Shown: in pieces, positions 36,770 to 63,200 of the stretch
Numbering within the stretch: position 1 is the first letter of the stretch
Layout of the letters: every line of letters begins with the position of its first letter
Source: Romanomermis culicivorax
Taxonomy: Eukaryota > Nematoda > Enoplea > Mermithida > Mermithidae
Assembly (NCBI GenBank): GCA_963922205.1
Contig: CAWUHX010000064.1
Location: 806,001 to 870,000 of the forward strand
Reading direction: 5' to 3'
Length of the DNA stretch: 64,000 nucleotides
Made by a program: the position numbers and the translations under genes
The notes under the pieces: model-generated
What the model saw: the letters and a program-made list of their open reading frames with translations, nothing else
The model's database searches: none
What the model was told of the DNA's origin: nothing

Positions 36770-36918
36770 TCAAAACTTCAAGCCAATGATAGCTAAGTTC
36801 AAAAACTTTAGGCCAATGGTAGCTAAATTGAACCTGACAATCATTAATTTTTCAATAGTATCACTCTTCAAACAATTTCTGGTAAGATCATAAATTTGAC
36901 CTGTGCCACTGAATAACC
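36770..36918 (-). pseudogene. hAT transposase C-terminal dimerisation domain, part 2
   Basis: On the minus strand this reads LFSGTGQIYDLTRNCLKSDT then IEKLMIVRFNL, the conserved end of the hAT dimerisation domain, with a TGA at 36772-36770. The last residues include a short tandem duplication (NLATIGLKF / NLAIIGLKF). Its upstream part continues at 53127 across the LTR-element insertion. Confidence 0.8.
36915..36918. other. Target-site duplication, left copy (AACC)
   Basis: AACC here equals AACC at 53127-53130 on the other side of the LTR element. Four bases is usual for gypsy-type integrases. Confidence 0.85.
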
Positions 36919-38378
36919 TGTCACGTGCCGCTCAATTCTCCAACGTCACGTGATCCTGATCATGCCGACATTTTGTTATTTTTCATGTTTCGTTTATTAC
37001 TCGAACATGCTTTTGTTTATTTCATTTTTACACATGCATTTTACGTCCGTTTTTATATTTTTATGCATTTCTATGTTTCGTTCTGTTGTATTTTTATTTC
37101 TTTACAAACGCGGGCTACAGTAGGCCCTTTAGCTAAAAACTTCCGCCAGTCGTGCTCCACGAGCACATGGCTATTTTTGGTGCGTTCACGCACCTCTTAT
37201 CATCAAAAATTAGCGTCATTTTTGTTACGCAAAAACGACTAGCTAAGAAGTTTTAGCTAAAGACGTTCATATGCTTAGCATAGGCACTGCAGTCGGCCTC
37301 AGTGCTAAACGCATGTGAACGAAAAAATGTCTATGTGCTCATAGGCATCTTCTGCATCGCGTCTAGCTGCAGAAGTTAGCTTGAGTGCCGAGAAACTCCG
37401 CCCAAGCTGCAGCTGTAGCCAAACATGTCCTTAAAAGGACATGTTTCTTTAGTTTTTCGCTCATTCTTGGGTTCACCAAGCTCCGATTCGGTTGTTGTAA
37501 CTTCGCGTCCGCCGCCCTTCCTAATTTGCATAATTTTATTATACACCTGTGCGTCCGCCGCCTTACTATCAATAAATTTGCATAAATTTACCCGTGTTCA
37601 CTGTGTCCGCCGCTTATCGTCTACAGTACCCCGCTGCCCATCAGTCCCAGGTGCCCGACCGCCCCGGTTCGTGAATTAAACGTTGGAGTGTCGCCTCCCG
37701 CTCGCTCCCGCTCCCTCCCGCTCGCCGCCGCTCGCCGCCACTCGCCGCCTAGGACGTTTGAGGATCGCATCCCCTGCTCCCAGTGCCAGAAGACCGAAAG
37801 CATCCAGGGACTTGCTGCCCGTTGCGTCGTAATCGCTTGAGAAACAGGACTAGGTGAGTCTTCTCAGGGGATTATTGTTATTTGTGGGTTATTTGTTGGG
37901 AAATCCTTCCTAAGTCGGTTTCCCAAGGTTTCCACAGATAAGTAGGGCCTCCACCTCTCAGGTTTGGGCTAAAAGGGGCTGTCTGGTTCATAATCGGGTC
38001 CCATAATTTAGGTCATTTCACGGGTGACCCTGTCCCCACTCTCACTGAGTAGGACTCGGGGATTGTCGCACCTAGCCTGGCAGCGTTGTCCGTTACCCTA
38101 CAGCAAGACCCCAAGGACAACTCCAGAGAACCAACTATAGACCTCTCTATAGCCACCATTTGCCAGGTTAGGCCCCCAACGCCAACTTGGGAAGCCTGGG
38201 GAAAATGCCAGTATCCATCAGGAGTCACAGCCTATTACTCACTGTAATAGGATCAATCTGATATGGTTCACCATCAATGTGACGTCTAAAACACGGTATT
38301 ACCTGATGAGATACCCAAACCTCTCCAGCTCTCCCAAGATCAACATGTCATACACGTGACATGGCGTAAAATGTGACA
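36919..38378 (+). repeat. 5' LTR of the gypsy-type element
   Basis: 1,460 bp, TG...CA, with 6-bp inverted ends TGTCAC/GTGACA. It contains a perfect 12-bp inverted repeat at 37421-37446, AATAAA near 37570 and a strong splice-donor-like tag|gtgagt at 37854. The small open frames inside (for example 36925-37242) lack protein features and are not annotated as genes. Confidence 0.95.
37421..37446. promoter_or_regulatory. Perfect hairpin in the LTR
   Basis: The arms aaacatgtcctt and aaggacatgttt pair perfectly around a 2-base centre (aa). The same hairpin is in the 3' LTR at 52169-52194. Its role is unknown: a protein-binding palindrome or an RNA structural signal are both possible. Confidence 0.8.
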
Positions 38379-38396
38379 TGGCGAGGCTGGAAAATC
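38379..38396 (+). promoter_or_regulatory. Primer-binding site
   Basis: The bases straight after the 5' LTR read TGGCGAGGCTGGAA, starting with the TGG that pairs with the CCA end of a tRNA. I could not name the tRNA from memory. Confidence 0.65.
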
Positions 38397-38399
38397 GAC

Positions 38400-38890
38400 C
38401 TTAAGTCTGGCACTCGTCCTTAAGTGTAAAACTTCACCCTTGGGTCGGAACTACCCCCAGGTCGGGTCAATTCCCATTTTAAGTCGGACAAGCCCCCTTA
38501 AAATTGGGCACTAGCCATCCAATAAGTCAGAGACCCCCCAAATTCGGGTTTACTGCCTAATGGGTCGGGAATGTCCCTTATTTCGGATTACCGCTACAGT
38601 AGGTCGGATACCTCCCCTCAAGTCGCGTATTATTACTGTAGTCGGAAATTCCTTTCCCGTGCCAACAAGAGTTATTACTGTAGGTCGGGAATTTATCCCT
38701 GAACATCAGATTTAATTACTGTAAGACGGGATTTGCCCTTACGAGTGATCTAAATGTGATCTATATGTGTAAATAATTATCTCATGCGTGTGTATAACCC
38801 CTATGAGTAATAAATCCCCTCTGAGTCGAGTTATTTATCCCCAGAGTCGTGTTATTTGTCCCAGAGTTGAGATATATATCGAGTATTCTG
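38400..38890 (+). repeat. About 20-bp phased degenerate array in the leader
   Basis: Units of the form aagtcgg-n(5)-cccc recur at 38402, 38420, 38441, 38461, 38481, 38501, 38523, 38541, 38561, 38582, 38601, 38620 and 38640, that is, every 18-22 bases. More diverged copies (gagtcgagttatttatccc) continue to about 38890. The spacing equals about two helical turns. Confidence 0.75.
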
Positions 38891-39160
38891 TATTTCTCCT
38901 CTGATCCATTCTGTACATTCCACAAACTTAGTCTGTGTTGTAAACTACCTTATCTGTTTCTTTTCCCTTATCCCCCCCCTTTCTCTAATCCTGGGTGGTA
39001 TACTGTAGCCCTCCGGGTGGGTGCCATTACAGTACGCCTGTGCCCATTCCCGTACTGTAACTACAGTATACCCATACGCGGGTACTGGTATCACAGCTGT
39101 AGGGGTTTACGGCCTCTCCTGACTGTTGGTGGTCCGTGACCCCATGATACCGTACACCCT

Positions 39161-39189
39161 CCACGTATGATTCTGGACGTCATACGTGG
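39161..39189. promoter_or_regulatory. Perfect 10-bp hairpin in the leader
   Basis: ccacgtatga and tcatacgtgg flank a 9-base loop. Confidence 0.7.
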
Positions 39190-39383
39190 CTGCGATTTGT
39201 TAATTGTGTACAGTATTTCTTGTCTGGCGGCGGAAACTGTCGGAATTGCTCACTTTTCCGGCCCCAAATTTTTACACTGACTGTTTACACATTTAACACG
39301 CGTATGTCCAACTCGCATATTCCCCGTCCTTGGTTATTTTTCTTTCCCTTCCCTTTTCCTTTCTCAGTCAGCTGAGCGGTGCC

Positions 39384-39408
39384 AAAAAAAAAAAAAAAAA
39401 AAAAAAAA
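39384..39408 (+). repeat. A25 homopolymer in the leader
   Basis: Twenty-five consecutive A residues sit between gcc and taattc. Its origin is unclear: replication slippage, or a retroposed poly(A) scar. Confidence 0.9.
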
Positions 39409-39553
39409 TAATTCTTTTTTCGGACGCCACCGCTACAGTATGACACCCTTACGTAAGTTTCTCCTTCTTCTTCATTTCTACTTACTGTAAGGTCTGATTC
39501 TTCCATTCTCCGGTTGTTGCATCTAGACCATAGACTTTACGGGTCATGCTCTT

Positions 39554-40255
39554 TGACGTCAGCAATGACAACGTTACGGGTTGTTGTTGTTGTGTGGTTC
39601 AACCCCACGGATGCAACCACTGACGTCTGCAACAGCCGCTTCACTTGCTGTTGCTTTAAGGGGTGGGTAGCCCTCCGGGTTCTACTCCTGACGTCAGCAA
39701 CCGACATTACGTGTTGTTGTTTAAGTTAACACTCCAGCAGTAATGACTTCTGACGTCTGCAACAGGTGAAGCCAATGTTGTTGTAACAGGTTCGGCTGGT
39801 TCTCTGCACCCCATCTGTGACGTCAGCAATGGTGACGCACCGTGCCACTATTCGAAGATGTGCAGGTCTTACGGGTGCCACATCTGACGTCTGCAACAAC
39901 TGCATCTCATGTCATTGACTTAAGGTATCAGACCCTCGGTTCCACCTTTTGACGTCAGCAACGGCACCATCACGTGTTGCTGTACACCGATAGCTGGCTT
40001 CAGGGCCCTATTGCTGACGTCAGCAATGACAATGTATCATGTTCTCGCAGCAGGAATTGAGGTTACATGATCCTATTTCTGACGTCCGCAACGGTAACAT
40101 TACGTGCTACTGCAGGGGTTCTGTCGGCCTTAGGCATGCACCCCTGGCGTCTGCAACTGCGACATGATACTTGAATGCTCTTATCCCAGGCACCTGCAGT
40201 CAGCACCAAGGTCATGTGTTGGTTCATACCCCTACCTTTTGACGTCCGCACCAGG
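39554..40255 (+). repeat. About 66-bp tandem array centred on TGACGTCAGCAA
   Basis: TGACGTC(A/T/C)GCAA recurs at 39554, 39621, 39689, 39751, 39818, 39885, 39950, 40015, 40080 and 40145 (tggcgtctgcaa), spaced 62-68 bases. Further copies lie at 40240 and 40580. The copies between 39554 and 40015 alternate mostly between the AGCAA and TGCAA forms. Between the motifs, acgtgttgttg-like blocks are partly kept. The core includes the CRE octamer TGACGTCA. At 40011-40026 the flank completes ttgctgacgtcagcaa, the palindrome bound by Maf-type bZIP factors. A role as a transcriptional enhancer is an inference. Confidence 0.82.
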
Positions 40256-40599
40256 TTACTGTCGGCCCTATGAGTATTCCACTTGAGTTGTAGGTGGTCG
40301 CTGGCGCATGGTCCTATCACCTACCTCTCTTGTCTAAGGGTTTGTGTGTGTCTGGGGGCTGATGCCTGGGAAACATCAGTCCACATACATACACCACCTG
40401 AGATGCTCACTAGCCTGCGTACTGATCAGGTTGTCCGCCCGGGTAGCGGCACTGTTGATCAGCACGTGGCTGTTTTCAAGCTTTAACTGCAGGTTTGAAC
40501 GAGTTACACTCGGCCTCAGCTGGGTTGGTTGTCTGACTCGAACAGATAGCAGGCATTTGCAGTCGGTACTGCCTGTGTCTGACGTCTGCAAGGGTTCGG

Positions 40600-42031
40600 C
40601 AATCTTCTTGTAAATTTCTTATCTAAATTCACTCATTCTCTTTCATCTCATCGAGCTGTCATACATAGATCTTCTTTAGTGTCCCCGCCGTAGTGGTTCC
40701 CAAGGGACCGCGGCACAGCCTCCGGTTGGGCCTAGAGTGTATAGGACCCCCTGTCATATTTCTTTCACTCGAACGCCTTCGTTAACTGGCTTAACGATGC
40801 CCGTGCTAGAGTCGCCACTGACCCAGAGTCCGCCTCCGCGGTCCACCCTTTATTAGTCATGTAAGTAATAGGCACCGTTGAGTCCGCCTCAGCGAAGGTA
40901 TTGAGTACGCCTCGATACATACTTTACACTCATATTCAATCAGGGACACCTTGTACCCGTGATCCCTTAGATGTTTTCGGGTGCGCCCTCAAAACATCCA
41001 GAGTATTTCATTTTAACTGACTGAGTGTGTCAGAATAGCACCCTTGGTACCCGTGCTTCTTCCCTCTTCTACTGTGTGACCTGCGAACCTCACTTCATCT
41101 CAGTGATCGGCAAACCCGGCCACCAGCTGTGTATAATACTCCTGGAGAGTGTCCGTTCTGTTCGGAATGCGGGCTCCCGTTTCGGACACGGCTGTAAGTT
41201 ACTTGCGAATGTCGTCCAGCACGGAACCTCCTGTATAGTCCGTCTCACTATGCAGAGATCGCAATCGCTCCTGGCGAGTGAGGCCCGTTGCGTAACTGCG
41301 CGACCCCTTTGCGTAACTGGGTTTGTAAATTAGTTTTGTCCCTATTTATTGCTCCCTCTTAAGTTCATTTTCAGTTGACCCTATCCTTTTCCACCTCATG
41401 CCACTTTATGCGCTACTCCTGGTGAGTAGGATCTTGCCGGCTACGAGTCCGCCTCGCCCCAAGGTTTGTAAACTAGTACAGCGGTCGAACCTCCAGGAAA
41501 AATCCCTCCTGAGCGGGTTCATCCGTCACCTCATTTTTTCGGCAGGAAAAACCGCCTCTTCTCCACCTTCACATCTGATCTTCCGTCCTCTTCATCTATT
41601 CTAATTGCCGGGTCCAGGCCCCGATCCTACATTTTGGCCGGGATCGATTCCCCCATATCTCAGGCCATGCCTCTGTCCATCACGGGCGACCAGATAAATT
41701 CCCTTCTGCGTCACCCTGATGTACTCTGATCTTACATCTTATAATCCTATTCCATTCTAGCTCCCTTTCCGTGGTCGCTAGTCTTAAGCTAAATCAATTT
41801 ACGTTTTAAACGCCGTCGCGCCCACGTTTTCCGAATTCACGCGCTCTTTCGCCGCGAATTCAAAAGTAGTACTCACCTTCATCTTACACAATAGAGACAC
41901 CCCGTCGTTCCTGCCGTCTCAGTACCCAGCCTGTACAGACCAGTGAGCCGCTCTCTATTCAATTTGACTTAATTGCTTCACGGGCAAGGACGTCTGTTCT
42001 AACCACCTTACGGGAAAACGAACCCTCGGAC
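40600..42031 (+). other. Rest of leader before gag
   Basis: GC-rich and without a convincing gene. The motif gagtccgcctc recurs near 40822, 40888 and 41447, with gagtacgcctc near 40908. A possible splice acceptor ttttcag ends at 41374 and could join the LTR donor at 37854, removing the arrays. This is unproven. Confidence 0.5.
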
Positions 42032-45000
42032 ATGAAGTCGGAAGCTGATCTCCCTTCACAGATCGAGAACAAAGTCCAGGCAGCATTTGAGAATGCTCTT
42101 GGACCCCTCAACCAAAAGTTAGAGGCCATGAATGGTCGGAGGCACCCTCCCGTGTCCAGCTTTATGGCCCCTCCCACCTTCTCCGGTGCTTTTGGTGAGT
42201 CTATCACCGATTTTATGTCGCATCTTACTCGTTTCTTTACACTCCAGGGTGTAAGCGAAACGGATCATGCGTATAAAATCGCTTGTCTGGAGTCATGCCT
42301 CACGGGTCCTGCTCTCGCCTCCTACCGGGACTTTAGCAGCAGCACTCCAATACCTACCCGCTACGAAGAGTTTACGGCTTTTCTACGGAGAGATTTTCCG
42401 GTAGGGCGTGACTCTGATCTGCATCAGCAGCTGATCCAAGATCGACTGCAGAAGCCGACAGAGTCGGCGATAGTCTACCTTGAGCACCTCAAAAGACTAT
42501 CCAGGGTAGCGTATCCAGATCTCGCGACGGATGTCCGAGATTCTATCATCAAACCTATCTTTCTGCGGGGACTGAAGCCGGTCCTCCGAGATAGTATCAA
42601 GTTTAGGGAGTTCACGACTCTTGAAGAGACACTCAAGGCAGCCTGTTACGCAGAATCCCAAATCTTTCGGGACGAGATCCGGTACACTGCTCCATCTAAC
42701 GCCGTTTTCTCTTCAGAACCTAAACACGCCGGATATAATCCCGATATGCCTAACAGAAGCGCAAACGGTCGTCAGAGCAACGCTCCAACGTCGTCATCCT
42801 CCGCCGATGAGGTTCGCCGCTTGAAACAGGAAATGGCCAGGCTCACGGCCCACGTAGCGAAGCTCACGGCCCAGCAACGTGCACCCACGCCAATCCAACA
42901 GACGCCGCCTCCACAGCCGTCGACACCAAATCAGTCCGCCGGGCGACGCTCGTCGGGAGCACACCTTCAAACGTGCTCCTTCCACGGACTGTGTACACAT
43001 AGCGACGCCGACTGCCGGGCCCAGCGTCCCACCGGTGCGGCTCCCGGTAACAACGCCGCTAACGGTGGTCGCTGTTATTTTTGCTGTACACGTGCCCACC
43101 CCACGGACCGATGTGATAGGCCATGCCCTCATTGTCGTCAAGTGCGAGTGCACCGATCAACTGCCTGTCCGCAGCGCAATCCGGCAAACACGGGTGAGAA
43201 TGTCTACCAAGATACTGGTTATTCTTCCCAGGGGACAAATGTGTATCATCAAAGAAATGGTTATCACCCTCCCAACGATACAGGAAACCATTATCGGCAG
43301 CCCATACGCCGCAACAACGCCGTTGGGGCTACCGATGGCCCTCCTCATCCAGACCCTCTTGACCTGGATGATGAGGCACTTGCTGAACACCTGACAGATT
43401 CTTCACAACAGTGTTATCCTGTCTGCGTAATCAGTATTGGATTTTCAGTGGTCCAAGCAGCCCAGGTACCCGTACCGATGAACGTATCGGACATACCGCT
43501 GCCACCACCACCACCAAAGTATGCGATGCCGGTCACTCTGGACCCCTCGACGACACCGCAGTTTGTTGGCCACGCTAACATCCTCGCATCGTATCGCATT
43601 CCTAAAATTAAGACTGCCGAGCCAGCTCCAGCCGCGAATACGACGTCTTCGGCGCCACCGGCCCGCATCGTCCCTCCAGGACCACCGCCTTCGATCCCCA
43701 CGGATTCGGCTACGGAAGTCCTCGACCAGGTCGAGCCCATGAATTTGTCAGGTATACTACCTTCTTCTTCAGGTGATCCTAGAGTAGGAACCAGAAATCT
43801 ATCTCAGTCCACGACTCTATCGATTTCTTGTTCACAGCGCCATCGCCCGTCCAAGACGCGATGTTGGCCATCTGGTCAGTCGACCTGGCCAAGAAATACC
43901 CACATTTGCCATGGACTCTCCTCAACGAGCCATCAAATGTCGAAGCACTCACGGCCGCCGACGTCGTGCTTGCAGCACCCGTCTCGATGCGCCTCTTACG
44001 ACCCGACGTCGCCCGCCGGGCACTCGAGTTCATTGCCAATGGGACTATCACCATCTCGCCCGTCGAGAAGTTCTTATTGGACGGAGAGCCATCCTCGCCT
44101 TCAGTCGATGCCATCCGCCGAGCAGTCGAACAGGCCAGTCGGATCCTCCTGCCTGCTGCCGCCGCTACATCACCGGCAGCAGCGCCAACTGTTGCCGCAA
44201 CATCGCCAACGAAAATGGACATTACTGCTTCCTCGCCCCCGGCCAAGGAACCCGCAAATGATCCTACACCGCCGGCAACAGCCCAGATCAAATCGCCGGC
44301 ACCAGCCCAAACGACATCTCCGACCGCCGCGACCAAGTCGCCCGTCGTCGAACCCATGGCCGTCGACGAGACCTTACGTCCAGTTAATGAGGATGTCAGC
44401 ATTGTTGAAACATCACGGTTCCCAACGGCAGTCAACCCACGGTCGCCGAAAGTCGGTACCCTTCGGGAAATCCTCCCCAGCGGTGAATTGGTCCTCGATT
44501 TCCCCGACCAGGAACCAATCTCGTCCGACAGCGACGAAGAAGAAATCTGACACTGCCCCTCAGGCCAGATTTGTGAAATTGAGTGAACACTTACAAATTA
44601 CGTTTGTACAGTTGTTTTTGACAATAAAATTGACCTTGGTAGCATCACTGTTTCTAGGGGTGAGTTTGTCAGCACCGGCGGCTCAGTATCAATTTTGCGG
44701 TCTCTCAAGAAGCGGACATCCACTTGAGTTACCCCAGCGTGTAGAGTGTAAACCACCGCAATCTTCATGGAGCCCGCGGCGCATGAATGTTACGGTGTAT
44801 GTCCCTAGCTCAGACCCGATTACAGCCACAGCGTGGAAATGCACATTGCGCTCCCGCAAAGTCTGCACCAACACTGGTTTCTTCGGCTCTAGGGGCATCA
44901 CTGCAGACGTCATCACCACTCAGCACCTAGCGCCTGCGGCATGCACGCTAGCACATCGCACTAAGATGTTTGGTTCACAAAAACTTGTCGGCATTCGCCC

Positions 45001-48000
45001 TGGCTTTTATAGCACAAACCAAACATTGGAAGTGATGTACGAATGGTGCTGCAGCGACGTCTGCAAGACAGTGACTAACCTTTTCATCGAGGAGGGACAA
45101 GTCGCTTCGTGGGACGGCACTACGGCCCTAAGCACCTTAGGCGATGTAGGTGGATGCAGTCCCACTGCAGGTCAGTGCACTACTCTAGACGGGGTCATTG
45201 TCTGGCCTGCACAAAACTTCACGGCGCGGTGTCATTATCACCCCAAGGGAAATTACACTGCGTCCATGTCAGGGAACCACGTCATCATCGATGATCTACA
45301 GGTTGCCCTCAGGATCCCGGGAAACTCCCGTGTCATCCAACTGTGCCCAGAACTACGTTCCACCACAGTCCGGACGGATCAGGGTCTTCTCCTTCGCATC
45401 CACGGGAGATACAATTTGACCCAAAACTTGTTCAGAGTGGCAACGGACAGCCGTCCCAATCCTGTCAATGCCAAACTGAACTATCTGGCTCAGCAGATCA
45501 AGGAGTCGGAAATTAACGGTTTCCGGTTCACGTGGCTTGAGCTTTGCTCTCACGCTCAACGCTATCTTGATCTGACTTGGCAGTTGCTTCGCTTCGACCC
45601 TACCCTGGGTGCCCGGGCATTCCTCCAGAGGAATGACCTGACGGCGGAATTCACAGGCGATGCGCTGACAATATGGCCGTGTCAGAAGGTCAACGCCACC
45701 TACGTTTACCACTCGTACCGGGTGGGGAACGTTTGCTACAAGTACTTACCTGTACAGGTTGGGGGCACCATCTACTTCGCCACCCCCGGTGGTCCGGATC
45801 TCATTAAATCTAGCCCAATTGTGCCGTGTCATCACCACTTTACAGGGATTTTCCGAAATCGCTCGGGCTGGTTTACTGAGTCTGGTGCGGTCCATGTGAG
45901 CCACATCCCACTGGAACTCTTCTGGAAGCAGCATTTCAACATCACTCACTTTGAGGCACCGGCGCTCTTCCATGACCAGTTGGCGATGACCCCTTCAAAC
46001 TTTGCCTTCTTTAAACAATACGTTTACAAGACTGAGCAAATTGAAGCGGTACTCAACCGGCTGGTAAACTTTACCGCTGGTCTATCCCTGCAACCAGACG
46101 CCATTTACCAGGCCTTTGCAGGGGTAGGAACCGACATCAAGGCCTCTCTGGAAGGTGTCGGTTTGGCAGCAAACCATGTTATTACGGGTCAACAACACAC
46201 CCTCGCCCAGGGCTTGCATGCTGTCCTGAGCGGGCCGGTCCAGTTGATCTTTAACATCCTAATTACCCTGACAGTGCTGATCGGTGCCGGATACCTTGCC
46301 TATCTTGGTGTATCTTATTATCTCAGCTACCGTCTGCGGAGCAAACAGGTCAGGTTTGTTAGCCGTTTCTCCCCGTTGGGTCTTTACTGCAAAGTCCAAC
46401 GCTGGATCGGTTTTCACTACGTGCAAAACGATGTGCCCTCCCAGCTTGACCGAATCACACCGTGCTTCGTCGTGCTGCTGGACACCAAGGAAACTCCTGC
46501 TTTCCTTGACACGGGTTGCCCACATACTATCATTAGCCAACGTCTTCATAAGGCCTTGGCTAAAGAAAGTCCGAAGGCGGTCATGGCGTTCCAGCAACAT
46601 CACGACTTTAACCCATTGATGAGCATCAATGGTAAAGCCGTTCATACCATCCTTTCGGGACCATATGAAATCATGTTGCCCGGAAACCGCCAGCCGAACA
46701 CACGGATCGATGTACATCTCCATGTGTGCAAGACTACGTCTCCCTTCTGGGCACCTGTTGACCTCATACTCGGACTGGACTTCTTAGAACAGTTCAAGAA
46801 CATTATGTTTGACTACCAACGTAATGTTTGTCGGCTGGACGCGGTAGAGTTACCCCTCCTGCTGACCACGCCGGAGATTGACCAGATCGACCCCTGGTGG
46901 GAGAACACCCGTGCTCTCTCGCGAAACTCACACAGGTCGGGATCACGATCGCGGTCCAGGGCTTCGTCCATCTCTCGGCCACACTCACGGGCCTCCTCAG
47001 TTGCCTCATCATGTGGGTCAACCAGGGGATCCCGGGCCTCTTCTAGACGGGCAAGTCGTCATCTGTCGACCTTGCATGGGTCAGGTTGCCCTCGACCTCC
47101 GCCTGGAACCTCTCCAGTTACGCTAGAGAAGGGCCGGTACCGTGAGCCAAGTGATTCAGATGCTCCGACATCACCCGTGCCAAACGCGCCTCCGCTATCG
47201 GACACCGAGGTTGAATCACTAGGAGCTACTCAGAGTCCGAAGGATCACTCAGACCACGTACTAACGGTGCAGGATGAGTCCACCCTTCTGAATGACCCGG
47301 AACCCTCCGTCGGATACGCTCTAGTAGGCCTCCTACGTCGTACGGGACTGCCGATTCCAAAGCGGTCCGGTAAAACGAAACATGCTAGTGGTGCCACCAC
47401 ACCTGATTCCGGTCATGTGGTCACGGCTTTTTACCCAAATGATATTCGGACACCCCATATCAAAGTTCTTCTCAACAACTGGGTAGAAGCGAAGGCACTG
47501 GTCGACACAGGAGCTGTTTTCTCACTCCTGGACCACAAGTTAGCGGCCCAGCTGCCCAACTTGTCACTATCACCAACCAGGGCACGCCCTATCGCAGCCA
47601 ACGGGTCCCCGATCCCACTGCTAGGAGCAGCCTACATCACAGTTACAGTGGCTGATGTCTCTGAACGGATTCAGGTCCAAATACAGGAGAACTGTTCAGC
47701 TGAGCTGGTCCTTGGAACCAACTTCCTCGGCCGGTTCAATTGTGTTAGTTTGAACTGGGAGAAATCTTTCCTCCAGTTCAAAGAGAGTAGAATCCCCTGT
47801 GACGGTCTCATCCACAGCCCACCTTCTGCCCGCGGCGCTTTGCCCCTGAAGGACTTGGTGATTCTTGAGCCTCGCTCCCTGACACGATTCACTGTACCTG
47901 TCCTACCAATCTATACGAACGTGCCTGAGGTGGCCTTCTTTCCGAAGCATCTCACCGGGTCTCAACGACACGTATATTTTGCTGGAAGCGTGAGTACCGT

Positions 48001-50308
48001 GACCAACGGTCACATACCACTTCAGGTAGTCAACCCGAGTACTCATTCCGTGGTTCTCTACCCGCACACGACCATCGGTCATGTGCAAATGCATAGTGAG
48101 CCCTCACGGGAATCACCGGTCGACTCAGACACCGTCCTCGATCGTCAGTGGGTCGAGGCCAATGCTGTAATCTCACCGGACATCTCCCCTCGGGACCGGG
48201 CAGCCTTACTCGATCTGCTGGTTGCATACACCGACCTTTATGCCCTTGATGAAAAGGACACAGGTTCCACTGATCTCGTCCAGCACGAAATCAGCACGGG
48301 CGATGCCCGCCCAGTCCGCCGTTTTCCTTACCGGTCCTCACCTAAGGAGAAGGATCTCATCATGCAAGAGGTCAAGGCACTCCAGGAGAAAGGTATTATT
48401 CGGCCCAGCACGTCTCCGTGGGCTACTAATACCGTCCTGGTGCGCAAGAAAAACGGTTCTCACCGTATGTGTGTTGACTTTCGTGGTCTTAACGAGGTCA
48501 CGAAAAAGGATGTCTACCCTCTCCCGCGGATAGATGACATCCTCGACACACTCAAGGGTATGAAGTATTTCACCACCCTTGACCAGGCTAACGCTTATTG
48601 GTCAATCCCGATTGCCGAGGCCGATAAGGAAAAGACGGCTTTTAATACGCCAATTGGACTTTACGAATTCAATTACTTGCCTTTCGGTTTATGCAACGCG
48701 CCAGGGACATTTCAACGCCTTATGGACCTCCTCCTTACTGGAATCCAATGGCGCACGGTTCTGACTTATCTCGACGACATTTTGGTGTTCGGGAACTCTC
48801 ACACCCAAATGCTTGAGCGCCTGGCAGATGTGTTCGCCCGTCTTCGCCGGGGTGGAATGAAGCTCAGACTGAGCAAGTGCAAATTCTCGCACTCAGAGGT
48901 AGAATACCTAGGCTATCGCATCTCACAGAGCGGCCTAGAACCTGACCAAGCCAAGCTGGCCGCCGTCCAAAACCTACCCATTCCACAAAACGCCAAAGAC
49001 ATCAAGTCCTTCCTAGGCCTCGTGTCTTACTACAGGCGTTTCATCCCTGGTTGTGCCCGGCTCAGCGAGCCCCTCACCAAGCTCTTACGGAAGGAAACTA
49101 CTTTCCAGTGGTCAAAACCTCAGCAGGAGGCGTTCGATGAACTCCGCCGCCTGCTGACCAACCCTCCTATCCTGCGCCATCCGGACTTTTCGAAATCCTT
49201 TATCCTTCAAACTGATGCGAGTATTTCGGGGATAGGAGCGGTTCTTAGCCAGTTAGACGAAAATGGATACGACCATCCTGTCGTGTACGCCAGCCGAGGG
49301 TTAACAGCGGCCGAGAAAAACTACTCCATTACAGAACTGGAGACTCTCGCTGTTGTCCATTTCGTCAAGCACTTTCGACCATACCTCTTCCAGCACGAGG
49401 TGGTCGTTCAGACTGACCATACCGCGGTCAAAGCAGTGTTGGAGAAGCCTAACCCCTCTGCTCGGATCGCTCGGTGGGGACTCGCGCTCGCCGAATTCAA
49501 ACTGACAATTCGGCCGCGAAAAGGTCAGTCTAATGGTAATGCTGACGCATTATCACGCCTGCCGGATCCTAACTCCCTCACCGGTCAGAGTATTGATGAT
49601 ACTCCCCTCTACAGACCTGAGGGGCACGTTATGATGATCACCGATGGTGCGCAGCACCTGGCGCGATCCAGGACCTTGACCGATGGTGTGCAGCACCTGG
49701 CGCGTTCAAGTAATTCAGCACCGATCACTGCTGGCGCGGAGCGCCCGGTACGATCAGAGTCTTATGCCGAGATATCCGTCGGTGCGCAGCACCCAGACCT
49801 TTTCGCTGCTCAGCTGGAGGATCCGGAGTTAGCCGACATCATTCGCTCTCTTAAGCCTCTGGGCGACCAGAATGATGTGAGAGGCTACCATCTGTTGGAT
49901 AACGTTCTTCAGAAATGGACAGGCGAGTCCAATAAGATCGTCATACCCAGATCCATGGTTACTACCATTATCCGGGCTCATCACGATGACATCTTAGCTG
50001 GACACTTCGGTGCTAAACGTACTGCGCGGCTCATTGCTCGCAGATACCACTGGCCCTCCCTCAGTCGGGATGTCAAGTCCTTCTGTCAGCGGTGTGATCT
50101 TTGCCAACGGAATAAGCCCGCTCGACAGAAAACCACTGCGACCCTGAAACCTATCACCATCACGGGACCGTTTCACCGGGTAGGTGTCGACTGCATGGGA
50201 CCAATGACCACTAGCGAAGCTGGCAACCGTTTCATCGTAGTCTTTATCGACTACTTTACGAAATGGGTCGAGGCTTTGCTACTCCGGACATCACTGCGCA
50301 CACCATAG
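42032..50308 (+). CDS. Gag-Env-Protease-RT-RNaseH polyprotein (integrase truncated by frameshift)
   Basis: This frame has 2,758 codons. The capsid-type gag domain lies at about 44-230. Cysteine-histidine knuckles follow: C-x2-H-x4-H-x4-C at 315, then C-x2-C-x4-H-x4-C at 348 and a C-x2-C-x5-H-x4-C. A signal-peptide-like stretch (854-884) ends before QYQFCG. It leads into an envelope-like ectodomain (885-1402) with many cysteines and nine N-glycosylation sequons, then a membrane span (1403-1430) followed by the basic RLRSK. Protease 1 has DTGCP at 1493 and ILGLDF near 1580. An RS-rich segment lies at 1630-1690. Protease 2 has DTGAV at 1825 and LVLGTNF near 1893. RT spans 2083-2262 with YLDD at 2246-2249. 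RNase H has its first catalytic Asp at 2395. The integrase HHCC zinc site starts at 2650. The frame leaves integrase after KWVEA and stops at 50308. Residues of about 585-850 are poorly protein-like and overlap a second frame. Confidence 0.93.
43783..44550 (+). CDS. Overlapping frame inside gag-env junction (240 codons from its first ATG)
   Basis: This frame is in -1 register to the polyprotein. It is open from 43783, has its first ATG at 43828, and stops at 44550. The protein looks more genuine than the polyprotein frame over the same bases. It has helical segments ([33 protein letters not shown]), an A/P/T/S-rich middle, and a very acidic end, SSDSDEEEI. Its codon third positions are C-rich like the rest of the element. 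It could be a Gag C-terminal extension reached by frameshifting or an accessory protein. It stops about 40 bases before the env signal peptide. Confidence 0.55.
44591..46345 (+). other. Envelope-like glycoprotein domain within the polyprotein
   Basis: It begins with a hydrophobic signal-like segment, has a predicted signal-peptidase site before QYQFCG, and has an ectodomain of about 518 residues. Motifs shared with the second element in this window include [18 protein letters not shown] / [18 protein letters not shown] and AEFTG(D/E)ALT(I/V)WPC. Paired cysteines (EWCC) and glycosylation sequons are also shared. A single membrane span follows near 46238-46320. The family is not certain. It does not look like the baculovirus-F-type env of insect gypsies or the phlebovirus-type env of nematode BEL elements. 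A relation to chuvirus-like (class III) glycoproteins is a guess from the cysteine and FFGS pattern. Confidence 0.75.
46500..46840 (+). other. Aspartic protease domain 1 (DTGCP)
   Basis: Residues of about 1485-1600 read [12 protein letters not shown] and later [12 protein letters not shown], the two signatures of a retropepsin. Cys at the position usually Ala or Ser in DTGA/S is unusual. It follows the env membrane span by about 60 residues. Confidence 0.75.
46915..47090 (+). other. RS-rich segment between the two proteases
   Basis: Residues of about 1630-1690 are dominated by alternating Ser and Arg ([11 protein letters not shown] and similar), like RS domains of RNA-processing proteins. 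It could bind RNA or be phosphorylated. No function is shown. Confidence 0.75.
47440..47760 (+). other. Aspartic protease domain 2 (DTGAV)
   Basis: [13 protein letters not shown] and [11 protein letters not shown] form a second full retropepsin signature (residues of about 1805-1905). This is the copy adjacent to RT and matches the single DTGAV seen in the second element. Confidence 0.85.
48281..48810 (+). other. Reverse transcriptase domain
   Basis: It carries the gypsy-type blocks [49 protein letters not shown] and catalytic YLDDILVFG (48767-48793). It is intact. Confidence 0.97.
49636..49800 (+). repeat. Tandem peptide repeat in the RNase H-integrase linker
   Basis: [33 protein letters not shown] and ISVGAQHPD follow each other. 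At DNA level two near-identical blocks (accgatggtg-gcagcacctggcgcg) are about 42 bases apart. It is a recent in-frame expansion. Confidence 0.8.
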
Positions 50309-51147
50309 CCCGGCTGTTTGTAACGCAAATTGTCTGCCGGCACGGGGCACCGCAGATTCTTCAGTCAGATCGTGGCACTGATTTCACATCAAAACTGATG
50401 ACTGAGATCACTGCGATCTGCGCAACGAAGAAAATCCACTCTACCGCCTATCACCCGATGACCAACGGCGAAGTGGAGAGAGCTAATCAGACGCTAGCCA
50501 CACGGCTACGTATGTATGTTCATCAAGGACATACTGATTGGGATGAACACCTACCATACGCTGTGTTTGCCGTCAATATCAGCATGAATGAGTCAACAGG
50601 GTACTCGCCCTTTGAACTCATGTACGGTCGCACACCCATGCTCCCTGTTGACGCCGCGCTCTCATTCAACCCTCCGGCCCATATCATTAATGTTTCCTCA
50701 TATGATATGGAGGTCAAACGTCATTTCACGAATGCGTTAACCTTAATCCAGAGTCGGATTGAGAAAGCACAGGAGGCCTATGCACGGTCGTACGACCGGA
50801 GGGCACATGATGTCTCGTACAAAGTAGGGGATCAGGTGCTCAAACTGCGCACCTCCAGCAAACGTGGACTCACTCCTAAATTGCTGCCCATCTACGATGG
50901 ACCCTACCTTGTGACCAGTGTGGCATATCCCAATGTCACACTTCGTCTCGAGATGGATCAGGAAGACACTGTACATGTCAACCAGCTTCGACTTTACGTG
51001 TCCCCTGAACAACCGAGTGAAGCAGAGGATACACCTCCCACTTCACAGGCAACAGATTCGGCACCCTTATTGTATCCCTCAATAAGCCGGGACTTTACAC
51101 CGAATCTGATTGACCCACATCTTGATGCAGAGGTCCCCGACCCGTAA
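50263..51147 (+). CDS. Integrase catalytic core and C-terminus (frameshifted from main frame)
   Basis: This frame continues integrase with LQSDRGTDFTS and NGEVERANQTL, giving the second and third residues of the catalytic DDE triad. The first Asp (GVDCMGP) is in the preceding frame. It ends with a GPY-like QVLKLRTSSKR and YDGPYLVT module. The frame change lies within about 50271-50280 and amounts to one base. No canonical slippery heptamer is present, so a mutation or assembly error is likelier than programmed shifting. Confidence 0.9.
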   Translation: MGRGFATPDITAHTIARLFVTQIVCRHGAPQILQSDRGTDFTSKLMTEITAICATKKIHSTAYHPMTNGEVERANQTLATRLRMYVHQGHTDWDEHLPYAVFAVNISMNESTGYSPFELMYGRTPMLPVDAALSFNPPAHIINVSSYDMEVKRHFTNALTLIQSRIEKAQEAYARSYDRRAHDVSYKVGDQVLKLRTSSKRGLTPKLLPIYDGPYLVTSVAYPNVTLRLEMDQEDTVHVNQLRLYVSPEQPSEAEDTPPTSQATDSAPLLYPSISRDFTPNLIDPHLDAEVPDP

Positions 51148-51666
51148 ATCAGGATGCAACTCTCTTCACTGTCCCTGCTTACGGACGAGGACGTCCTTTT
51201 TCGAAGGACCGCCGTGCCCCTCACGAAGTATCCACTCTTGTCCATGCTGGATCTTAGCGGATAGAAGAGAGCATTCAGCAACCTAAGCGTCACGCCTTAG
51301 GCGCATCCTCACGCGATAGCCTACATCTCTCAGGGTGCATCCTCTGCGATAGCCCGACAATCTGTACCTCACTGGGCGCATCCTCGGCGATAGCCTACAT
51401 CTTGCCCTGAAAATTTTTCTTTTCTGTGTTCTAGACTGTCGCACAGGACATTCAATGTCGGCAACTCCACACATCAACAACCTCCGGTCACCATACCGCC
51501 GAACGAATTACGATCAAAGAAGGCGCCACCCGCCGACAACCCAACGGACCTATTCGACCACTTCCGCCGTCACACCTTGGAATGACCAACGACCACGGAC
51601 ACGCCGTACAAAACCTCACTACTGACCACTGCAAGGACGAGGACGCCCTTTTTCGAAGGACCACCG
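51148..51666 (+). other. 3' tail between integrase and 3' LTR
   Basis: It is non-coding. The motif ggacgaggacg-ccctttttcgaaggacc-ccgtg occurs twice, at 51183-51215 and at 51636-51668 (against the LTR start). The unit gcgcatcctc-gcgatagcc is present three times at 51299-51395. There is no long pure polypurine tract. The purine-rich aaggacgagga near the LTR may serve. Confidence 0.65.
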
Positions 51667-53126
51667 TGTCACGTGCCGCTCAATTCTCCAACGTCACGTG
51701 ATCCTGATCATGCCGACAATTTTTTATTTTTCATGTTTCGTTTATTACTCGAACATGCTTTTGTTTATTTCATTTTTACACATGCATTTTACGTCCGTTT
51801 TTATATTTTTATGCATTTCTATGTTTCGTTCTGTTGTATTTTTATTTCTTTACAAACGCGGGCTACAGTAGGCCCTTTAGCTAAAAACTTCCGCCAGTCG
51901 TGCTCCACGAGCACATGGCTATTTTTGGTGCGTTCACTCACCTCTTATCATCAAAAATTAGCGTCGTTTTTGTTACGCAAAAACGACTAGCTAAGAAGTT
52001 TTAGCTAAAGACGTTCATATGCTTAGCATAGGCACTGCAGTCGGCCTCAGTGCTAAACGCATGTGAACGAAAAAATGTCTATGTGCTCATAGGCATCTTC
52101 TGCATCGCGTCTAGCTGCAGAAGTTAGCTTGAGTGCCGAGAAACTCCGCCCAAGCTGCAGCTGTAGCCAAACATGTCCTTAAAAGGACATGTTTCTTTAG
52201 TTTTTCGCTCATTCTTGGGTTCACCAAGCTCCGATTCGGTTGTTGTAACTTCGCGTCCGCCGCCCTTCCTAATTTGCATAATTTTATTATACACCTGTGC
52301 GTCCGCCGCCTTACTATCAATAAATTTGCATAAATTTACCCGTGTTCACTGCGTCCGCCGCTTATCGTCTACAGTACCCCGCTGCCCATCAGTGCCAGGT
52401 GCCCGACCGCCCCGGTTCGTGAATTAAACGTTGGAGTGTCGCCTCCCGCTCGCTCCCGCTCCCTCCCGCTCGCCGCCGCTCGCCGCCACTCGCCGCCTAG
52501 GACGTTTGAGGATCGCATCCCCTGCTCCCAGTGCCAGAAGACCGAAAGCATCCAGGGACTTGCCGCCCGTTGCGTCGTAATCGCTTGAGAAACAGGACTA
52601 GGTGAGTCTTCTCAGGGGATTATTGTTATTTGTGGGTTATTTGTTGGGAAATCCTTCCTAAGTCGGTTTCCCAAGGTTTCCACAGATAAGTAGGGCCTCC
52701 ACCTCTCAGGTTTGGGCTAAAAGGGGCTGTCTGGTTCATAATCGGGTCCCATAATTTAGGTCATTTCACGGGTGACCCTGTCCCCACTCTCACTGAGTAG
52801 GACTCGGGGATTGTCACACCTAGCCTGGCAGCGTTGTCCGTTACCCTACAGCAAGACCCCAAGGACAACTCCAGAGAACCAACTATAGACCTCTCTATAG
52901 CCACCATTTGCCAGGTTAGGCCCCCAACGCCAACTTGGGAAGCCTGGGGAAAATGCCAGTATCCATCAGGAGTCACAGCCTATTACTCACTGTAACAGGA
53001 TCAATCTGATATGGTTCACCATCAATGTGATGTCTAAAACACGGTATTACCTGATGAGATACCCAAACCTCTCCAGCTCTCCCAAGATCAACATGTCATA
53101 CACGTGACATGGCGTAAAATGTGACA
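51667..53126 (+). repeat. 3' LTR of the gypsy-type element
   Basis: Same length as the 5' LTR with about ten substitutions (for example at the positions of 36965, 37187, 37601 and 38268 of the left copy). Confidence 0.95.
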
Positions 53127-53197
53127 AACCATTCAGAAGTGATGATTGTTGTTGACGCAGATAAAATTATTTTGGATATCAATGACATGTTCGGCAG
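53127..53197 (-). pseudogene. hAT transposase dimerisation domain, part 1
   Basis: The minus strand encodes LISKIILSASTTIITSEW, the start of the same domain. When one copy of the 4-bp target duplication is discounted, it runs in frame directly into the fragment at 36914. A stop lies upstream at 53200-53198, so the gene is decayed. Confidence 0.78.
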
Positions 53198-60208: not shown

Positions 60209-63200
60209 ATGACCCACCAAACGCAAGATCATTTAGGAGAAATCGTTAGAGAACAGATAAATGATTTGTTTTCAGAACATTTTCGTACCCTACGCACACA
60301 ATTGAATCAGAATACAGTAAACCCTACCCTAATAGACGATCTAAGAACAGCAAACATTCGTAATAACATGGCAAACAATTTCTACGCGAAACCTACAGTA
60401 TTCACAGGCGGCGTGACCCAACATTTTGGTGAATGGAACAAAAGATTAGAACAATTCATGGCACTCCAAGGCATGAAAGATACAGACGTACAGTTAAAGT
60501 TGGCATGTTTAGAAATTCATTTAGGAGGAGCCGTGTTAGCAAAATTCAAAAGTTTAGCAAATTCCGAAAACCCTCCCCACACATACGAGCAGTATAAAGT
60601 CGCATTACAGGCATTTTTCCCAAACAATAGAGATAATGAGCTACATCAACAATTTTTACGCGAAAGAAAACAAAAGCGTTCAGAAACAGTAACGGAATTC
60701 TTATTTGATCTAGAACATCTCGCAACCCTCGCCTACCCTAACTTTAACACAGACGCACGAGAAATGATCATAAAACCCCTCTTTGTAGAAGGCATGCAAA
60801 ACGAAATCAGGGAAGCAATTAAGTATAGAAGGTTCGCAACTCTAAAAGAAATGTCAGATGAAGCAGCTTACATTGAACAGCAAATTCTTAGAAATGAGTT
60901 AAAATCTAATGTCCTTCCCTTCATACCCCCAAAACCCGAACCCATCTTTTCCCTCACCAAAAACACAGACCAACAGGATCTTTTGCATCAGTTAGAACAA
61001 CAAGTAAAAGATTTACAGCTGCAGATCAAACAAAAACCTCAACCCCCACCACAGAGTAGCTACAACAATTTCAGTAACAATACTTTCAGCAGGAATAATG
61101 CTTACAGGAACAATACCACCCCTAGACAGCCCACATGCTTCCAGTGTGGACAAATCGGACACGTAGCTCGTAATTGTAAATCAGTAGGCACCCGAAAATC
61201 ATGTGAAATCTGTTTCCGTAATAATCACAGTACACGTGATTGTAAAAGCCCATGCATCCACTGCTCCCAAACAGGACATAGATCAGATAACTGCCCTTCA
61301 AAACCCTACTCCAATTTTCAATGTTTTATATGCAAGCAGAGGGGTCATACAAGCAGGTATTGCCCAAATCAGCAGAGTCGTAATATTCAAAATTGCATTG
61401 AGTACAGGCAACCCCAACCCCTCATGGACATTGACGACCCCGCATTTTACTCAAAATTACCCGCCATAACTAACGGCCCCCAGACTACTTTAGGAACTAT
61501 CATGCCCAACACCCACCGCCGTAGCGACGAATACGTCCTTGATCTGGACGTACCCGATTGGTGCGCCATGTCACCACCCCCCACGCCTGAAGCCGCAAAA
61601 ATCGAAAAATCGCCGCCCACCATCCCCGTAGGTTACAAGATCCCCCGGAAGCAAGACACTACGCCGCCCACCGCCCCCGAAACCCCATCGAAAACAGGTC
61701 GCAACTTATTATCCCTCTTACACAGCCTGACCCCTGAACCCTACCAATTTCGCCCCCGCCAAACATTGCTACCGACCCCCACAAGTAAGCAAGTCCAAAC
61801 CCCATCCCATAACTCAACTTCTAAAGTTTTACAGAATGTTCAGATTGCAAACCGGCCACCCCCCCAGCGCAAAACCGCAAAACGACAACACCAAAAGCCC
61901 CAACACCAAACCGGCCACAACGAAAAAACACAGTGCCCCGCTGCCTCCACTAAAACATTCTATTGGCCGATGTTTTGTATTTTTCTTTGTATAATAATCC
62001 CCACATCGTGTAGTGCCCAATTTCAGATGTGTGGAACTTCATTGAGCGGTCACTCAGTCAGCATACCAAAACTTGTATCATGCATGCCCCCTTCCACAGT
62101 AGACAAACCCGTACAAACATTCGGAAAAATCTATATCCCCTCCACTAAGCCCCACATTACAGATGCATATAAATGCAGCGTTCGCAAACGCAAAATTTGT
62201 ACTAATACAGGATTTTTTGGATCAAAAGGTATTGTCTTCGACCAAACCGAAATGCAAAATCTAACCCCACATGTTTGTAAGGCAATCGTTATAGACAAAG
62301 AACACAACGGTCAAAAATTATACGAAACCCAACCAGGATTTTGGTCAACAAATAACTCCCTAAGCGTAGAATACACATGGTGTTGTACAGACCATTGTAC
62401 CTCAGTCACTAACGTCATCATAGAAATAGGACAAATAGCATCTTGGAATGGAAAATCTATGACAGGTACATTAGGCGACCTAGGGTCATGCAAACCGACA
62501 TCAGGTCATTGTGTCACAGCCGATGGATCCATTATCTGGAATGAAACAGCATTTGAAAACTTATGCCCCTTCGAATACAAAAACACACATCCCATCAAAC
62601 TCACACAAACCCACATGATAATAGAAGAACTACAAGGTGCATTCTCAGTCAAAAATACACTCTTTTCAAACCCCAATTGCCCAGAAATCCAAGACAGCAT
62701 TCTAACCGAACAAGGCATTATCGTCCAATTAGACAAAAGCACACCACATCGTAACGCATTTTTAACCCCAAAAACCAACGAAACTCGTACTACACTATAC
62801 GATTTTGATGATTTTGAACCCATCAATGCAAAACTAAACTATCTAGCAGACAAAATACAGGAATTCGAAATTCAAAATTTCAAAAATGTATGGAATGAAC
62901 TATGCAGACAGGCACAGCGTCACCTTGATCTCGTATGGCAAATTTTACGTCTTGATGCAACCCTTGGAGCGCGTGCATTCCTACAGCGAACGGACATAAT
63001 AGCAGAATTCACAGGAGAAGCCCTCACAGTCTGGCCCTGTAAGCAAGTAAATGCATCTAAAATCTTTTACAACCACAAAATCAACCAAACATGTTACAAA
63101 CTTTTGCCCATTCTCGTAGGAACTGAACTCATGTTTTCAAATCCAGGAGGCAACGATTTGACCCCTTTTTCACAAACAGTTGACTGCCATCACATGCATG

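Follow-up and report, generated by a model that had tools for sequence, protein, structure and literature searches.

A predicted class III fusion glycoprotein encoded between gag and protease in gypsy-type long terminal repeat retroelements of Romanomermis culicivorax

We analyzed a 64,000-nucleotide stretch of the genome of the nematode Romanomermis culicivorax (assembly GCA_963922205.1, contig CAWUHX010000064.1, forward-strand positions 806,001 to 870,000; hereafter, the window, with coordinates counted from its first nucleotide). It contains two retroelements with an envelope (env) gene between gag and pol: element 1, a complete long terminal repeat (LTR) element spanning 36919-53126, and element 2, which runs from 60209 to the window end (64000). 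This gag-env-pol order is real, occurs repeatedly and marks an unusual variant among LTR elements that carry env. Most likely, with a probability that we put at roughly 0.6, these are gypsy-type LTR retroelements in which the coding region for a class III fusion glycoprotein of the mononegavirus/jingchuvirus type lies between gag and protease, with the glycoprotein produced within one Gag-Env-Pol polyprotein.

Domain architecture of the two elements

An earlier note on this DNA had described in element 1 a single 2,758-codon frame running through gag, env, protease, reverse transcriptase (RT) and RNase H. This open reading frame (ORF1) is indeed uninterrupted, and the Pfam matches along its in-frame pieces follow the order Ty3_capsid, PF24664 (Monjiviricetes_fusion), gag-asp_proteas, RVT_1, RNase H and Integrase_H2C2 (Table 1); the part of the description that did not hold concerns the segment 43830-44480, which codes in a different frame. 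All domains listed in the note are borne out, and the beginning of the integrase, the H2C2 domain, which the note had not listed, is also in frame. The Ty3_capsid match of gag (E 1.2e-6) scores 28.6 bits against a cut-off of 29.1, that is, 0.5 bit short, and this gag is 39% identical to that of P0005, one of three database proteins described below, and 36% identical to that of element 2. The remainder of the integrase falls in a different frame, ORF2, such that the integrase of element 1 is frame-broken relative to those of the database relatives P0005, P0006 and P0007, in which the rve domain sits within a single protein.

PF24664 was detected in all five env-containing sequences, namely, the two elements and P0005-P0007. 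In each of the five, a signal-like hydrophobic stretch precedes env at the same position, a membrane anchor follows it, and the ectodomain contains 16 cysteines, a combination that would fit a Gag-Env-Pol polyprotein threaded through a membrane. Judging from the sequence and the predicted structure, env is a class III fusion glycoprotein of the mononegavirus/jingchuvirus type with a putative gB/VSV-G-like fold; the predicted model yields gB fold matches, at a predicted local distance difference test score (pLDDT) of 57.8 and a predicted template modeling score (pTM) of 0.39. The env gene has been under long purifying selection. No sequence relatives of env were found in PDB, where the only two matches had E-values of 0.56 and 1.2, and a furin-type site (pattern R-x-[KR]-R) was not found in env of element 1, element 2 or P0005.

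Element 1 is bounded by two LTRs with 99.25% identity across 1,464 columns of a blastn self-comparison (about 0.7% difference), outside which the 4-bp target-site sequence AACC is duplicated (36915-36918 and 53127-53130). The sequence between the 5' LTR and gag is long (Table 1) and opens, right at the LTR end, with TGG, a candidate tRNA primer site. Read by eye, the region ahead of the 3' LTR (51190-51230 and 51635-51665) holds a near-repeat with an internal inverted repeat, and no clean purine run was seen at the position expected for a polypurine tract. An env 3' of pol was looked for and found neither in element 1, where the 519 bp between the end of ORF2 and the 3' LTR are too short to hold it, nor among the related proteins found.

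Element 2, for which the note had claimed gag, an env-like region and protease in one frame at 60209-64000 with clear divergence from element 1, stands as described: the frame is open throughout, and the two env sequences are 42% identical (226/535 columns). Codon-usage scores for element 2 were trained on its own gag and env, so that the scan tests the linker rather than gag or env themselves; the stop-free gag-env frame scored best in 39 of the 40 scan windows, the exception being that at 61739, within the low-complexity linker, where phase +1 scored -0.03 versus -0.13 for the gag-env frame. The remaining two frames contain stops in nearly all scan windows. Only the start of the protease lies within the analyzed stretch, and pol and the LTRs of element 2 fall beyond it.

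Between env and RT, ORF1 of element 1 contains two protease-like regions. By sequence, the second, PR2, reads clearly as a retropepsin. The first, PR1, resembles P0006 and P0007 weakly by blastp; neither a match to P0005 in blastp nor a Pfam match was obtained for it. In the predicted structure of the 506-residue protease region (pLDDT 38.1), PR2 alone is ordered. The same interval comprises three PR2-like stretches in P0005 (residues 1352-1919) and one such stretch in P0006, and P0007 has two DCG motifs (DCGA and DCGS, around residues 1862 and 2002); this reading of tandem retropepsins is based on blastp and motifs. In element 1, the Ser/Arg-rich stretch at 46.83-47.40 kb has low codon-usage scores in every frame, with that of ORF1 the highest.

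Table 1. Features of the two elements and env-containing database proteins
Feature	Positions	Strand	Description
5' LTR, element 1	36919-38378	+	1,460 bp; TGTCAC start, GTGACA end (TG..CA); fixed-offset and blastn self-comparison
Leader, element 1	38379-42031	+	3.65 kb from 5' LTR to gag; without ORF of at least 105 aa ahead of the gag frame
ORF1, element 1	42032-50308	+	2,758 codons: gag, linker, env, protease(s), RT, RNase H, integrase H2C2
gag, element 1	42032-43171	+	Ty3-type capsid, two CCHC knuckles; Pfam and motifs
Off-frame ORF P0004, element 1	43828-44550	+	240 aa, in gag-env linker; codon usage favors its frame to about 44480
Signal-like stretch, element 1	44597-44680	+	hydrophobic; residues 856-883; ahead of env
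env, element 1	44681-46315	+	putative class III fusogen ectodomain (16 Cys); membrane anchor 46214-46315; PF24664 E 3.1e-14
PR1, element 1	46424-46861	+	DTGC motif; directly after env anchor; retropepsin-like by weak similarity
PR2, element 1	47402-47911	+	retropepsin, DTGA; PF13975 (gag-asp_proteas) E 2e-8; 53% to P0005
RT and RNase H, element 1	48440-49498	+	Pfam: RVT_1 E 1.6e-35, RNase H E 2.2e-36; RT-RNase H 66.5% identical to P0005
Integrase H2C2 zinc-binding domain, element 1	49943-50119	+	PF17921 (Integrase_H2C2) E 4e-22
ORF2, element 1	50263-51147	+	remaining integrase, different frame; Pfam rve E 1.9e-4
3' LTR, element 1	51667-53126	+	1,460 bp; same self-comparisons
gag, element 2	60209-61402	+	four CCHC knuckles; zf-CCHC Pfam E 1.8e-10
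Signal-like stretch, env and membrane anchor, element 2	61955-63679	+	gag frame; PF24664 E 2.6e-18
Protease motif, element 2	63986-63997	+	DTGA; at window edge, same frame
P0005			2,973 aa, JGI; env identity 42%; PF24664 E 5e-12
P0006			2,847 aa, JGI; env identity 36%; PF24664 E 1.9e-14
P0007			3,263 aa, NCBI; env identity 34%; PF24664 E 1.8e-12

Database relatives and phylogeny

With the env region of P0001 as the query, three proteins, P0005, P0006 and P0007, were retrieved at E <= 0.001 among 4,806 candidates. In all three, according to Pfam, PF24664 precedes protease, RT, RNase H and integrase within one protein. In piecewise blastp, gag, env, PR2, the pre-RT region, RT-RNase H and integrase of element 1 are collinear in P0005 and P0006, and the same pieces except gag are matched in order in P0007. 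The stretch ahead of env holds an RRM in P0006 (residues 419-475) and an SF1-type helicase in P0007 (residues 582-1002), resembling a slot for extra domains. In an env-only protein search, at least one match was obtained among the 7,995 candidates scored, namely, P0008 (536 aa), a stand-alone env relative with PF24664, 36% identity over 78% of the query and a hydrophobic start of its own. Among viral contigs, 28 pattern matches yielded no relatives by tblastn, with the records of the window's own genome possibly excluded.

These relatives bear on the possibility that the order is an artifact, either a chimera of the assembly or the outcome of separate insertions of env fragments into two gag-pol elements. 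In the window and the database proteins, we found nothing in favor of such an origin. Env occupies the same place in five sequences, three of them on other contigs, homologous gag and protease flank it in the same frame, and, in element 1, matched LTRs and a target-site repeat enclose it; P0005 and P0006 contradict this explanation, provided that their contigs are sound. The argument of the note, that repetition of the order speaks against a chimera, thus holds for the two local copies and extends to three database proteins, of which two also show gag. Given the same order in two diverged copies and three database polyproteins, an assembly chimera is very unlikely, and we give this explanation, including separate insertions, almost no credence.

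The RT search gave at least 3,424 matches among 7,964 scored candidates; PF24664 was present in one of the best 120 (P0005), which are no fair sample of the near relatives because the ranking favors proteins with multiple pol copies. The RT matches carry RVT_1, RT_RNaseH and Integrase_H2C2, a set that we take to mark gypsy elements, and the names K02A2.6-like and transposon 17.6 occur among them. Among the RT-search matches listed, the aphid protein P0096 has the usual order, gag-protease-RT-RNase H-integrase-Baculo_F, followed by a second RT. No BEL-Pao domains, such as Peptidase_A17, were among the Pfam matches at E 1 for the two elements or at E 0.01 for P0005-P0007.

For the RT phylogeny, we used element 1 together with the 112 of 122 database proteins for which the RT match covered at least 380 columns; filtering at 75% identity left 41 rows, and removal of the long-branch sequences P0019, P0029, P0067 and P0090 left 37, a set that contained no references from named gypsy clades. 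In the 37-row tree, element 1 and P0005 form a firmly supported pair of sisters (100/99) that groups with P0006 (89/90), and P0007 is unplaced. In the 41-row tree, element 1, P0005 and P0006 group with P0090 (89), with P0007 elsewhere. The four env carriers do not come out as one clade in the 37-row tree, and such a clade is not rejected either (approximately unbiased test, p-AU 0.109). The suggestion of the note that these elements represent an undescribed gypsy-like lineage is accordingly upheld with respect to the gypsy-type pol, and the env carriers may or may not form a single lineage. Because the position of the signal, the 16 cysteines and the flanking protease are shared, we favor the placement of env between gag and pol in one event, followed by divergence.

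Expression of env and the gag-env linker

Under the polyprotein reading, translation of the genomic RNA would begin at the gag start, and Gag would remain in the cytosol, with the internal signal stretch sending the env ectodomain into the endoplasmic reticulum. The env anchor would then halt the transfer, returning protease, RT, RNase H and integrase to the cytosol; signal peptidase would separate Gag from Env, and the retropepsin or retropepsins would release Pol. The resulting particles could bud carrying the fusogen and, if infectious, move between cells. Alphavirus and flavivirus polyproteins use such membrane threading.

Several observations weigh against this reading. Confidence in the env model is middling, and the whole-chain TM-scores (template modeling scores) that it gives are low. 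In P0007, piecewise blastp detected no gag, and this protein could derive from a joined gene model. A plain polyprotein would yield Gag, Env and Pol at 1:1:1, an unusual stoichiometry. Furthermore, judging by codon usage, the gag-env linker of element 1 codes in another frame for about 650 bp, such that the unbroken frame of ORF1 is only formal there. Because this stretch is off-frame and the integrase is frame-broken, this copy of element 1 may be non-working. Two further points, the compatibility of the data with splicing and the lack of a slippery heptamer in the linker, are best considered together with the alternatives that they concern.

The stoichiometry, in particular, would be resolved if the gene order is real and the RNA is processed alternatively, with an env-less message joining gag to pol and a separate message giving env. 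There are precedents: Env of insect errantiviruses derives from a spliced subgenomic RNA (PMC12992720), and the 3' ORF of Cer1 is expressed via a spliced mRNA (PMC10309623). Within the ORF of element 1, there are 11 pyrimidine-AG sites, for example, at 44471, ahead of env. However, the frame is open from gag through env to the protease motif in element 2 and to the integrase in P0005 and P0006, and an intron need not stay open. Near the env borders, no consensus splice donor or acceptor common to both elements was seen, a result with which splicing is still compatible; at the sequence level, the missing shared strong donor consensus would be weak evidence against splicing. We consider this alternative unlikely, albeit one to be taken seriously.

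In element 1, codon-usage scores trained on its own gag, env and pol back the ORF1 frame across most of ORF1, and across 43830-44480 they give +32.5 bits for phase +2, the phase of ORF P0004, versus -57.5 bits for the gag/env phase. P0004 had no Pfam match at E 10, and its single weak PDB match is a designed protein. Compared by unfiltered blastp with the in-frame linker of P0005, the off-frame product is 25% identical over 124 positions (E 1.8e-4), a match that is weak because the sequence is of low complexity. Our first reading is that the linker of element 1 has suffered two compensating indels, given that the integrase is frame-broken as well, the LTRs differ by about 0.7%, and the off-frame product matches the in-frame linker of P0005.

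The same data could reflect a programmed frame change, whereby the -1 frame of P0004 would produce an extended Gag, with most chains ending before env, and the zero frame would produce Gag-Env-Pol. The codon usage does move to the frame of P0004 across this stretch, and P0004 terminates 130 bp upstream of the mature env start. However, a gag-phase slippery heptamer was looked for at 43500-43870 and not seen, an absence that counts against a programmed change as well as being unhelpful to the polyprotein reading, and element 2 has no such switch in codon usage. The weak match between P0004 and the linker of P0005 looks as if the stretch was formerly in frame, and two indels in a decaying copy explain the data equally well. 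Altogether, we see a slim chance for a programmed frame change, and production of env within one Gag-Env-Pol polyprotein remains our preferred reading.

A broader proposal is that the elements belong to an undescribed retrovirus-like branch defined by one membrane-threaded Gag-Env-Pol polyprotein, the absence of a spliced env, a slot ahead of env and after gag that accepts RNA-handling domains as cargo (the RRM of P0006 and the SF1 helicase of P0007), and tandem retropepsins that cut the polyprotein. We advance it tentatively, with a chance of being correct in full that falls a little short of even.

Flanking host gene

We scanned 18 flanking ORFs; five of them, located on the + strand between 2.3 and 31.9 kb, gave myosin heavy chain matches with E-values of 0.0012 or better. 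One myosin tail exon has its nearest matches in chains 3jbh, 8u95 and 7kog of striated muscle, which we take to be tarantula and insect proteins. The region 2316-31872 (+) thus holds exons of a myosin heavy chain gene of the striated-muscle type, with element 1 positioned 3' of the last exon seen. By themselves, these matches point to an animal host, probably one of the invertebrates, and a nematode would be compatible with them.

Comparison with known env-carrying elements

Element 1 shares with the Metaviridae (Ty3/gypsy) the paired LTRs with TG..CA ends, the short target-site duplication, the protease-RT-RNase H-integrase order, the gypsy-type RT, and the Ty3-type capsid and CCHC knuckles. 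Insect errantiviruses (gypsy, ZAM) are close analogs, which likewise combine LTRs, gag and a gypsy-type protease-RT-RNase H-integrase module with a captured viral fusion protein. The errantivirus env, however, is of the baculovirus F type and is a third ORF expressed by splicing (PMC12992720), located 3' of pol, whereas element 1 has a predicted class III env between gag and protease. In general, in the available portions of the sources, env lies downstream of pol in the described env-carrying LTR elements and is spliced where expression has been described (insect errantiviruses).

Other elements resemble those described here in the source or in the presence of an additional gene. Anakin of mosquitoes carries a captured chuvirus-type glycoprotein, but with a BEL-Pao pol (PMC7642597), unlike the RVT_1, RT_RNaseH and H2C2 set of element 1. 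TelKA elements of bdelloid rotifers also have an env captured from negative-strand RNA viruses, in this case, of the paramyxovirus F type and encoded by ORF3 after gag and pol (PMC5408684). The Cer elements (Cer1, gypsy/Ty3; Cer7, BEL-Pao) are worm LTR elements with an additional ORF: in Cer1, it is a non-env ORF 3' of pol (PMC10309623), the env of the BEL-Pao Cer elements is cited as herpesvirus-derived, and the env-like genes of Roo, Tas and Cer7 lie downstream of the polyprotein (both PMC7642597). The elements described here also place a class III fusogen resembling those of negative-strand RNA viruses within a gypsy-type element. On such a capture, Dezordi 2023 (PMC10084718) reports that Gypsy fragments are abundant near Jingchuvirales glycoproteins, two of which are in Nematoda, with no clear evidence that Gypsy has captured them.

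The literature covered by our search, as far as its text was accessible, contained no precedent for the gag-env-pol order or for a gag-env fusion; the survey in which Chary and Hayashi (2025) examined metazoan gypsy elements with env, which comprises 289 representative elements according to PMC13172572 and reportedly describes gB-type envelopes, was outside this coverage. Kept by selection in such highly diverged copies, the gag-env-pol order would represent a second route to an enveloped reverse-transcribing element, and how the amounts of Gag, Env and Pol are set without splicing becomes a testable question. A parallel to the proposed mode of expression is found in alphaviruses and flaviviruses, in which, likewise, capsid is followed by an internal signal and an envelope glycoprotein within one ORF. 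Those are positive-strand RNA viruses that lack a reverse transcriptase, so the comparison is one of working rather than of kinship.
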